Assembly: GCA_944390575.1 (NCBI GenBank)
Contig: CALXQJ010000002.1
Location: 310,001 to 374,000, forward strand
Length of the DNA: 64,000 nt
Reading direction: 5' to 3'
Source: an uncultured Spirochaetota bacterium
GTDB taxonomy: Bacteria; Spirochaetota; Brachyspiria; Brachyspirales; Brachyspiraceae
Under the pieces are notes generated by a model. It was not told where the DNA came from, ran no database searches, and saw nothing but the letters and a program-made list of their open reading frames with translations. The position numbers and the translations under genes are program-made. Of this stretch, positions 40,887-44,898 are shown one piece after another (position 1 is the first letter of the stretch; each line of letters begins with the position of its first letter).

Positions 40887-42809
40887 ATGTCTGGAAGTTT
40901 AAAATTAGTTGAAAATCTTGAAAATAAATTTGAAAAAACAAGAGAAGAAGTAAAGGCATTAATTAGAGATATTTTTGGTAGAATTACTATGTCTATATTG
41001 GATGCTAATATTTTTTATATACGAAATATTGGATCTATTTATATATCTGACAATTATAAGATAGTCTTTACTATGTCTGATATTAATTTTGATACTTCAT
41101 TATATGCTATTGCAAATAATGATTTTGAGAATATTTCTTTTTTTGAAGCTATTTTTGATAATATTAAAGAAATTATTAATACTGGAGAAAAAGTATATAT
41201 AGATGATTTTGGTACTTTTTTTATTGATAATGATTGTATTAAATTTGATCCTGATGAGATTTTACTCTTTTTAGTAGAAGAGAGAGTAGATATTATACAA
41301 AAAAAATCTTCTACTATATTAGTGAGAAAATTATCAAATAGATTTAATAAAACAAAAGAAGAAATTACATCATATATAAATGATTTATTTTATTATATTA
41401 CATTAAATATAGCTAAAGGAAATACTGTATATTTAACAAATATAGGGTATTTATATTATAAAGATAATAATGTTCTTTTTCAAAGAGATGAGATGGATTT
41501 TGATATAGATATTGATTCTATAGTTCGGGGAGATAATACAAAGAAGTATATCTTTGAAATAGTTTTAGAGAATATTAAGGATTTGATTTATAATTCTTAC
41601 AAAGTTTATATAGAAGCTTTTGGAAGATTTAGATATGAGAATGGAAGTATATATTTTGAATCTGATGAGGCACTTTTAGAAAGTATTAATAGGCTTAGAG
41701 ATAAGGATAGGATTAATAGTATTGTTCAAAATGATGCTGAGAAGGTTATAAAAATAGATGAGATTATAGAATACATTAGTAATATAGATGAAGATAAGGC
41801 TATTTTTAATTTACAAAAAAAAGAAGAGGATACTATATTAGAAGAAGTTGTTGTTAATGATGTAAGTAGTATTACTAAGGCTATGGAAAAGGGAAATGAA
41901 CTACTTGAGTCTGGAGAAATAGAAGATACAATAAAAAGCTTTGATGATGATAAGATAGAAAAAAATGTAGAAAAAGTAGAGGATGATAAAACTAATAATG
42001 AAAACACTACTTTAGAAAATGATAAAAACCTTGAAGAAAAAATGATACTTTCTCCTGTAGAGATTGATAAAAATGAAAATAATTATAATAATACTCTTAT
42101 TTCTAATATAGATAAAATATCTAAAGAAAGTAAAAAAGAGAATACAAAATCAAATAAGAAGAAAAAAAAGAAAAAGTCTCATGCGTTCTCTAAACTGCTT
42201 TTATCCGCTATTTTACTTTGTTTAATAGTATTTACTATTTTTGTTATAAGAAGTGATTATTCAAGAAAAGAGATAGATACAAATCTAACAGCTACATCAT
42301 TATATAACATAGTAAATAATTTCTTTATAGATGTAGGAGTTCAAGATTTTTCTTCATACACAGTAAATACTGATACATATTATTGGGATTTATCAAAAGC
42401 TATTTATGGAGACTCTACTTATTGGCCTCTTTTATATCCATATAATCATATAAAATCAGACACACAAATAAAAAGTGGCACTACTATTTTATATAGAAAA
42501 CTGCCTAATAATCTTAAAATATCGGATGTTAAATATTTTTACAATATTTTAGCAAAATCGTTTTTAAAAATATATCCCGATTTAGTAATGGCAGAACAAA
42601 CTAATCATTCTATATGGGCTTTGAAACTTTCTGCATATTATGACTATAATGTTTATGATGATAATAAAGACATTATTAGAAGTGATATTAATTTTGATAA
42701 TGATAAATTAGCATTTGATGATTTATTTAATAGATACTCAAAATTAAGTTCAGATAAGTTTGGTGCATTTGTAGAGACAATAAGAGAAATAACAGGACTA
42801 CAAAAGTGA
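40887..42809 (+). CDS. Multi-HU-like / transmembrane / LysM-like protein
   Basis: I find no described family with this full architecture. The first 270 residues are two copies of a two-domain unit (offset about 137 residues), each domain patterned like HU/IHF. Examples are FFEAIFDNIKEIINTGEKV then YIDDFGTFFI (85-113), and a second copy at 222-250 with YIEAFGRFRY; NIG turns at 47-49 and 185-187 mark the other pair. A charged linker (270-420) and seven consecutive lysines (424-430) precede one transmembrane helix (436-455). The outside part has a LysM-like domain (491-540: YTVNTDTYYWDLSKAIYGDS, then IKSGTTILY). The lysines suggest N-terminus inside. The gene overlaps nnr by 4 bases. Confidence 0.75.
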   Translation: MSGSLKLVENLENKFEKTREEVKALIRDIFGRITMSILDANIFYIRNIGSIYISDNYKIVFTMSDINFDTSLYAIANNDFENISFFEAIFDNIKEIINTGEKVYIDDFGTFFIDNDCIKFDPDEILLFLVEERVDIIQKKSSTILVRKLSNRFNKTKEEITSYINDLFYYITLNIAKGNTVYLTNIGYLYYKDNNVLFQRDEMDFDIDIDSIVRGDNTKKYIFEIVLENIKDLIYNSYKVYIEAFGRFRYENGSIYFESDEALLESINRLRDKDRINSIVQNDAEKVIKIDEIIEYISNIDEDKAIFNLQKKEEDTILEEVVVNDVSSITKAMEKGNELLESGEIEDTIKSFDDDKIEKNVEKVEDDKTNNENTTLENDKNLEEKMILSPVEIDKNENNYNNTLISNIDKISKESKKENTKSNKKKKKKKSHAFSKLLLSAILLCLIVFTIFVIRSDYSRKEIDTNLTATSLYNIVNNFFIDVGVQDFSSYTVNTDTYYWDLSKAIYGDSTYWPLLYPYNHIKSDTQIKSGTTILYRKLPNNLKISDVKYFYNILAKSFLKIYPDLVMAEQTNHSIWALKLSAYYDYNVYDDNKDIIRSDINFDNDKLAFDDLFNRYSKLSSDKFGAFVETIREITGLQK

Positions 42810-44326
42810 AAATAGTAACTAAAGATGAAATTATTAATATAGATAGAAGAACAACAGAAAAAATACCTTCTATACTCTTAATGGAACATGTAGCTAGTGA
42901 TATATTTTATTTACTTATAAAGAGACATAAAAATAGACTTTATAATAATACAGTTCATATTTTTTCTTCTGTTGGTGGCAATGGTGGAGATGGTCTTGCT
43001 CTTGCTCGATATTTAATAAAAAATGGATATAGTGTTAGAGTATATATTACAGGTAATCTTGATAGGGTAAATAAGGATACATATTCTAATTTTAGCATAT
43101 TAAAATCTATGAATATTGATATTTTATATTTATCTGAAGAGCATAGAGTTTTAGATATTTTGTCTACTATAGAAGATGATGATATTGTTGTAGATGCATT
43201 ATTTGGAGTTGGTGGAAGTAGAGCTTTATCTGGTGTTGAGAAGTTATTAATAGATAATGTCAATACTCTTAATGTTTTAAGAATTGCTATAGACTTACCT
43301 TCTGGAATATTTTCTAAAATTGATGATTATTCTAATGTTAATAGTTGTTTTAGAGCTACTGAAACTTATACTATTTGTTTTCCTAAGGATATTTTATTTT
43401 TATATAGAACTCGTGAATATGTTGGAGAATTATTTGTTATAAAATCTATTTTTCCTAATTCTATATTAGAAGAATCTCCATACAGAGCAAAATTAATAGA
43501 TTATAATGAAAATATTGATATTATAAAAAATCCATTTTTCTCTAAAAGAGAGCAGGGTAAACTTGCTATTATAGCAGGAAGTTATGATTTTTTAGGTGCT
43601 TCTATACTTGCTACTATGGCAGCTTATAGAGCTGGAGTTGGATATATTAGACTTTATGTACCTAAGGGTATAGTAAATGATGTTAGAGTATCTATTATGT
43701 CTACTATGCCTGAAGTTGTTATAATAGGTGTTGGCAATGATGGACAGAAATACTTTACAGAGAATGATATATATATTTATAATGATATTAATAAAAGTGA
43801 TGCTTGTTTAATAGGATCTGGTATAGGTAGAGAATTAAGCACTGATGTTTTTGTTAATGCTATTTTAAAACAAATTACAATTCCTACTGTTATTGATGCT
43901 GATGCTTTATATATGATGCTTCCTACTACATTGGATGAGCTTGGTGATAATTTTATATTAACACCTCATATATATGAGTTTGAGAAATTTATGAATATAG
44001 ATAGTATAGAAGTATTAGAAAATCCTTATACTTCTTTACTTAGATTTAGAGAGTATACAAAGGCAAATATTATATTAAAAGATGCTATTAGCTTTATAAT
44101 GAATAATAATGATATATATGTAAATTATAATCCTACTAATGGTATGGGCAAAGCTGGTATGGGAGATGTTTTAGCTGGGCTTGTTGCTTCTTATCTATCT
44201 CGCAAATTAAGTTCATTAGATGCTTGTAAGCTTGCACTTATAAAACAACATAATATTTTTAGAAAGCTTTTAAGAAAGTATAATAGTGACTATATTCAGC
44301 CTAGTGATTTAGTAAAAATGTTATAG
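42806..44326 (+). CDS. nnr: Bifunctional NAD(P)H-hydrate epimerase / ADP-dependent dehydratase
   Basis: The enzyme repairs NADHX and NADPHX, damaged forms of the cofactors. The N-terminal epimerase part (YjeF_N, about residues 1-215) has GGNGGDGLALARYL and DALFGVG. The C-terminal dehydratase part (about 230-500) has KREQGKLAIIAGSYDFLGA, VIDADAL, LTPHIYEFEKF and the catalytic NGMGKAGMGDVLAG loop. It starts with GTG at 42806, overlapping the stop of the HU-like gene (GTGA), with AGGA 8 bases upstream. Confidence 0.93.
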   Translation: MKIVTKDEIINIDRRTTEKIPSILLMEHVASDIFYLLIKRHKNRLYNNTVHIFSSVGGNGGDGLALARYLIKNGYSVRVYITGNLDRVNKDTYSNFSILKSMNIDILYLSEEHRVLDILSTIEDDDIVVDALFGVGGSRALSGVEKLLIDNVNTLNVLRIAIDLPSGIFSKIDDYSNVNSCFRATETYTICFPKDILFLYRTREYVGELFVIKSIFPNSILEESPYRAKLIDYNENIDIIKNPFFSKREQGKLAIIAGSYDFLGASILATMAAYRAGVGYIRLYVPKGIVNDVRVSIMSTMPEVVIIGVGNDGQKYFTENDIYIYNDINKSDACLIGSGIGRELSTDVFVNAILKQITIPTVIDADALYMMLPTTLDELGDNFILTPHIYEFEKFMNIDSIEVLENPYTSLLRFREYTKANIILKDAISFIMNNNDIYVNYNPTNGMGKAGMGDVLAGLVASYLSRKLSSLDACKLALIKQHNIFRKLLRKYNSDYIQPSDLVKML

Positions 44327-44337
44327 GATAATGATAT

Positions 44338-44898
44338 ATGCCAAGAGAAATATATGATCCAAAAAATCCAGAGTTGGAGTTTTATAATGAAAACCCACCT
44401 AGGGTATTTAAACCAGCACCAAGACGCCCTAGAAGTATTATGGCCAATAGATGGTTTATGGTTATATATGGATTATTTATTACTATGATAGTTGCTGGAA
44501 TATTTTTATATAGATATGGGCTTTTACCTAAATTTGATTTTCTTTCTAAGTATTCAAAACCTTTATTTGTGAAGATTAAAGAAGTAGAATATATCAATGA
44601 TAATTTAATGTATGCTACAGTAGAAGTTCGCAATGTTAATTATACTAATTCTCAAACAATTCATTCTCTTAAAGTTAATTGGGATCTTTACTACTATAGA
44701 AAACATCTAGAATCTGGATATGACAGCTATTATAATATTATATTCCCAAAAGGACAACGAATAGGCTTTAAAATACCAATAGATTATAGTCATTGGAAAA
44801 AAAGCACAAAACTAAAAATAGCATTAACTTTGGACGAAGAAAATACTATAATCAATAATATATCAACTCAAACTATAGTAGCAAGAAGAACAAAGTAG
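44338..44898 (+). CDS. Single-span membrane protein of unknown function
   Basis: I do not recognise this 186-residue protein. It has a Pro/Arg-rich cytoplasmic N-terminus (about 1-38, with PAPRRPRS), one transmembrane helix (about 40-60), and a beta-rich outside domain (about 70-186) with alternating hydrophobic residues (KIKEVEYINDNLMYATVEV, then LKVNWDLYYY). The latter half has the flavour of an immunoglobulin-like or FxLYD-type fold, but this is weak. It follows nnr after 11 bases and probably shares its transcript with the HU-like gene. Confidence 0.75.
   Translation: MPREIYDPKNPELEFYNENPPRVFKPAPRRPRSIMANRWFMVIYGLFITMIVAGIFLYRYGLLPKFDFLSKYSKPLFVKIKEVEYINDNLMYATVEVRNVNYTNSQTIHSLKVNWDLYYYRKHLESGYDSYYNIIFPKGQRIGFKIPIDYSHWKKSTKLKIALTLDEENTIINNISTQTIVARRTK

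Follow-up and report, generated by a model that had tools for sequence, protein, structure and literature searches.

An open reading frame at positions 40887-42809 (+) of the window (the whole 64,000-nucleotide stretch of DNA analyzed here) encodes a 640-residue protein with the order HU-HU-HU-HU-TM-LysM-helical tail, in which every HU domain lacks the DNA-binding arm. The gene was matched in every Brachyspiraceae genome searched and has conserved neighbors, and proteins with the order HU-TM-LysM, most of them armed and encoded next to a second HU gene, occur in other spirochaete families. The best explanation as a whole, to which we attach about as much belief as doubt, is an envelope-spanning HU-TM-LysM family that would act as an armed DNA tether elsewhere and would carry an armless, protein-binding head in Brachyspirales.

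Architecture and predicted topology of the window protein

The head consists of two armless units. Unit 1 (residues 1-138; 40887-41300, +) comprises HU1 (residues ~2-78) and HU2 (residues ~79-138) and is recognized by PF00216, PF18175, an AlphaFold model, and a repeat test. Unit 2 (residues 139-276; 41301-41714, +) comprises HU3 and HU4 and is recognized by Pfam, the same model, and the repeat test. In that test, residues 1-139 aligned to residues 140-276 with a local score of 236 (z = 25.7), which was reached by none of the shuffles (0/1,000), at an offset of 138 residues; an earlier note on this DNA had proposed such a duplication of a two-domain HU/IHF-like unit, at an offset of about 137, and it is thus borne out. 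A Pfam search with residues 1-270 matched PF00216 in three stretches (E = 5.6e-16). PF18175 (CCDC81-like prokaryotic HU domain 2) scored 40.8 bits over these residues and 28.9 bits over the whole protein (cut-off, 35), and in the genome scan no spirochaete protein exceeded this cut-off. Weak matches to the HU-CCDC81_euk models were also found.

Structure prediction of the head, using an alignment of Brachyspira orthologues, returned an HU-like model (pLDDT 89, pTM 0.63). Because the pattern alpha1-alpha2-three strands, alpha2'-three strands-alpha3' repeats per unit, each unit is, on this model, most readily interpreted as a single-chain HU pseudo-dimer rather than as separate HU domains. Within each unit, alpha3 is reduced in the first domain and alpha1 is missing from the second. 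Two pseudo-dimer units therefore describe the head better than the earlier count of four HU-like domains. The long beta arm, the DNA-binding element with its Pro turn, had been suspected to be missing and is absent from all HU domains of the protein (4/4). Residues 1-270 have a net charge of -15 and a pI of 4.6.

A fold search with the head ranked chains R-W of PDB entry 9io5, the Mycoplasma mobile gliding G1-ATPase complex, as the best match (E = 2.7e-3, probability 1.0), followed in order by axonemal doublet proteins and then by HU and single-chain IHF, for which E-values were modest. The HU matches have an rmsd of 1.2-2.1 Å over single domains. As judged from the searched text on the gliding complex (PMC11864180), in which HU is not mentioned, chains R-W are probably GliD, the six-copy bridge subunit. 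The chains themselves resemble a tandem armless HU unit. On the axonemal side, the microtubule inner proteins include CCDC81b (PMC11961760).

An acidic linker (residues 277-435; 41715-42191, +), predicted to be cytoplasmic, joins the head to the membrane. It contains seven consecutive lysines (residues 424-430; 42156-42176, +), a positive-inside signal, and is followed by a single transmembrane helix (residues 436-455; 42192-42251, +), for which hydropathy delimits a hydrophobic segment at residues 436-454 and finds one segment in every homologue checked. The charged linker, the lysines, and the single span are as the earlier note described them. Basic residues around the Brachyspira span number 2-8 per 15 residues on the N side versus 0-1 on the C side, with 3 in the window protein. 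Because basic residues are concentrated N-terminal of the span, the window protein and its Brachyspira orthologues are predicted to hold the head inside and the LysM outside (N-in/C-out), in agreement with the proposed outside position of the LysM end. Some other spirochaete families show a weaker bias of this kind or none.

Other Brachyspira orthologues examined conserve a linker motif of the type MKEYSKEELLDIN, which was not found in the window species. The motif MKEYSKEELLDINxFDxxxL stands in an otherwise variable Brachyspira linker and occurs, for example, in three copies in the orthologue at L031 6146-8005. The MKEYSKEELLDINxF motifs of these other Brachyspira linkers point to a possible partner-binding site.

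Beyond the membrane span, a divergent LysM domain (residues 489-536; 42351-42494, +), predicted to be periplasmic, precedes a C-terminal helical tail (residues 545-636; 42519-42794, +) that, by model and profile, is common to HU-TM-LysM proteins of other families. The AlphaFold model of this end (pLDDT 79, pTM 0.75) shows beta-alpha-alpha-beta at residues 489-536 and then the tail. Four homologues (L046, L049, L040, and L039) pass the Pfam LysM cut-off, and when they were included in a C-terminal-region profile, it matched LysM proteins of the PDB, among them Kbp, SafA, and TsaP. In the fold search against the PDB, LysM-bearing proteins ranked first but weakly (best E = 0.47, probability 0.96). 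The suggestion of a LysM-like end is therefore upheld by the predicted fold and by the homologues but not by a Pfam match of the window protein itself, in which PF01476 went unmatched. Neither Pfam nor the model places a C-terminal SPOR domain in the window protein, which has the LysM-type beta-alpha-alpha-beta in its place. Because the LysM is divergent, peptidoglycan binding by it is putative.

Distribution of the gene and of canonical HU in Brachyspiraceae

The HU-LysM gene was matched in all Brachyspiraceae genomes searched (29/29). In a scan of genome contigs with a profile of Brachyspira sequences only, the named carriers included B. pilosicoli, B. hampsonii, B. catarrhinii, B. alvinipulli, and B. 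innocens. A second weak match in genome G024 (L038) was set aside, as HU and LysM were both absent by eye. An in-frame TAG, which may mark a pseudogene or reflect an error in the sequence, splits the orthologue of genome G007 (L024 6666-8313, -) into two ORFs. The B. pilosicoli and B. catarrhinii lineages and the window species carry two HU units; most Brachyspira have one (two domains). On a tree of the neighboring gene, unit number needs one change (a gain or a loss), for which support is weak (63/47); the outgroup carries a single unit.

The Brachyspira gene order is trxA, the HU-LysM gene, a YjeF/Carb_kinase gene, and a gene for a 186-residue membrane protein, with secG beyond the last in eight of the Brachyspira loci. 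In the window, the YjeF_N/Carb_kinase gene (42806-44326, +; assigned by Pfam and synteny) overlaps the HU-LysM stop codon and has a housekeeping function, NAD(P)H-hydrate repair. The 186-residue protein (44338-44898, +) has one predicted membrane segment and is a candidate partner; its gene is a neighbor in all three Brachyspiraceae genera sampled, adjoining or standing near the HU-LysM gene in the two non-Brachyspira genera too.

HU is a common bacterial DNA-packaging protein. When PF00216 was searched in six frames, with E-values up to 10 admitted for the Brachyspira genomes, the best match was the HU-LysM gene in each of them (26/26), and the residual weak matches sit in frames that are long or broken. 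No PF00216 match at 0.001 came from the three other Brachyspiraceae genomes, and canonical HU was detected in none of the Brachyspiraceae genomes (0/29). PF00216 was matched in 128/149 genomes of the same sample; thus, most other spirochaetes keep HU. The tandem-HU LysM protein of sister-family genome G026 is its sole HU, and sister-family genome G025 carries two canonical HU genes together with a LysM protein without HU. As far as these profile searches indicate, the only HU-fold protein left in Brachyspira is the membrane-anchored, LysM-ended, armless one. Brachyspiraceae is a natural case of a nucleoid without detected canonical HU, in which HU-fold domains have apparently moved from DNA binding to protein binding.

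Overlapping HU and HU-TM-LysM genes in other spirochaete families

Tracing HU matches in long frames revealed a pair of genes, the first for a small HU and the second for an HU-TM-LysM protein. Ten genomes from seven further spirochaete families carry it (f3, G070; f4, G028; f12, G036; f13, G037; f16, G040; f19, G091, G125, and G153; f23, G049 and G060); in f27 (G068), a fusion was seen at a contig end. The two coding regions overlap in all pairs (10/10), by 4-14 bases as called in 8/10, which suggests that translation may be coupled. The arm is kept, usually with an Asn-Pro turn, in f3, f12, f16, f19, f27, and the fused gene of f4, and the small HU partner is armless in f13 and f23. HU-domain charge is mostly positive in these families and mostly negative in Brachyspirales.

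The Brachyspirales protein shares the HU-TM-LysM order and the common helical tail, but it has no separate adjacent HU partner gene, as both HU domains lie in one chain. A profile of the LysM and tail trained on Brachyspirales only, with f3 and f16 sequences left out, ranked exactly the f3 and f16 proteins first, with E-values that are only indicative because the database is small; by this profile evidence, the LysM and helical tail of Brachyspirales are homologous to their f3 and f16 counterpart. HU1 and HU2 of Brachyspirales could not be assigned to the soluble and fused members of the pair, as proof of a gene fusion would require, because profile scores were ambiguous between the classes. 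Rejected as members of the family were many LysM matches in other families, which showed LysM-only similarity and no further sign of the family, and ORFs of ~285-320 residues with a C-terminal HU, which belong to a different family.

Several additional genes were observed in these searches. A separate spirochaete family of ~295 residues combines an uncharacterized N-terminal domain with a C-terminal HU (L047 6787-7671, -; L050 5631-6521, -; L065 2715-3614, +), and an ORF just upstream of an HU pair (L045 3104-3634) resembles, by eye, the N-terminal part of that family. In f4, f13, and f23, the gene immediately upstream of the HU pair encodes a membrane cyclase-like protein (L049 4223-5809, L059 5355-6920, and L061 1823-3391). 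Our literature search returned no paper that deals with HU-LysM proteins or with HU in Brachyspira, and the split armed HU/HU-TM-LysM pair is, as far as we found, undescribed.

Because overlapping pairs, most of them armed, occur in seven families, the idea of a tether fits those relatives better than the window protein. In other families, a heterodimer of the small HU and the HU-TM-LysM protein would most likely tie DNA to the wall, since the head is usually armed and its gene overlaps that of a second HU. The HU-TM-LysM proteins may have begun as chromosome-to-wall ties, as the relatives keep arms beside that second, overlapping gene. Bacterial nucleoid-envelope attachment is poorly known, and the armed HU and LysM pair, widespread in spirochaetes, allows a direct test.

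Readings of the head and comparison with known systems

Direct DNA binding by the window protein is doubtful, because all of its HU domains are armless, the region is acidic, and the nearest folds are tandem motility and axoneme structures. The direct nucleoid-to-peptidoglycan link that the earlier note had suggested for this protein is thus not supported; the tether idea draws support from relatives in other spirochaete families, in which an arm with the Asn-Pro turn is usually kept and the gene overlaps a second HU gene. The earlier note's own caveat, that the HU-like domains could bind protein in place of DNA, fits the armless, acidic head better. Given the missing arms and the acidic surface, binding of a cytoplasmic protein rather than DNA is the better guess for the head, held at even odds.

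As predicted, a flexible, acidic linker and a single span would connect a cytoplasmic HU-fold head with the LysM and helical tail in the periplasm, and this outer end would hold the protein at the peptidoglycan. The Brachyspirales head, with its two HU domains on a single chain, its lost arms, and its acidic surface, would most likely bind a cytoplasmic protein. The preferred scenario is that an HU-TM-LysM envelope protein was inherited by Brachyspirales, in which the HU part was then reduced to a platform for binding protein. A fuller version is more tentative, with chances well short of even: a membrane-anchored HU heterodimer would tie the nucleoid to peptidoglycan in spirochaetes, and Brachyspira, without another HU, would have remodeled this system as an envelope scaffold that lacks arms.

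Brachyspira might also possess a nucleoid-to-wall tether, its armless tandem units binding DNA via the saddle and perhaps replacing canonical HU. In all Brachyspira genomes, the HU family is matched best by this gene, and none yielded a canonical HU; armed relatives exist, and the HU units partly resemble single-chain IHF. We nonetheless regard such a tether as unlikely, given the missing arms, the negative charge of residues 1-270, the tandem motility-complex structures among the best fold matches, and the YbaB-family and ParB-domain genes that the source genome carries and that remain for DNA organization. Those same motility and axoneme matches would suit a scaffold that was never DNA linked, in which the head would dock the machinery of division, of the cell pole, or of the periplasmic flagella and would be positioned on the wall by the LysM tail; the conserved linker motif and the neighboring membrane protein also suggest partners. 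Against this reading stand relatives with intact arms and adjacent HU genes, and flagellar or division genes were not identified among the listed neighbors; we give it a low probability. A membrane signaling or regulatory protein, whose LysM and tail would sense the wall and whose HU head would act on transcription, is very improbable, for although one span joins two compartments and the cyclase-like gene adjoins the pair in three families, the protein has no recognized signaling domain, a long and poorly conserved linker, and an armless head.

The preferred reading, an inherited envelope protein with a head reduced to a protein-binding platform, can be set against several known systems. The window protein has the HU fold of canonical HU/IHF (PF00216), but it is armless, acidic, and membrane anchored, with two pseudo-dimers per chain, rather than small, soluble, and basic. 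Single-chain IHF (PDB entries 2iie and 2iif) likewise has two HU folds per chain and gives weak sequence and fold matches; unlike the window protein, it is engineered, has long arms, and binds and bends DNA. Kbp, SafA, and TsaP share the LysM profile match but lack HU domains and are divergent in sequence.

CCDC81-type tandem HU domains probably bind protein, as is proposed for the Brachyspirales head. The eukaryotic proteins of this type are linked to the window protein by the weak HU-CCDC81_euk Pfam matches and the doublet-microtubule fold matches, but they have neither span nor LysM and belong to the eukaryotic cytoskeleton. The closest described kind is probably the Bacteroidetes HU-HU-TM-SPOR proteins (CCDC81-like), for which Burroughs, Kaur, Zhang, and Aravind (2017, Cell Cycle 16:1093; cited in PMC12218091) reportedly predicted a chromosome-partitioning role. 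These resemble the window protein in their tandem HU with a short second domain, one span, and a C-terminal domain of a peptidoglycan-binding type. The spirochaete system differs from them in carrying a LysM with a helical tail rather than SPOR, in belonging to the phylum Spirochaetota, and in including, among its relatives, a split two-gene form with intact arms.
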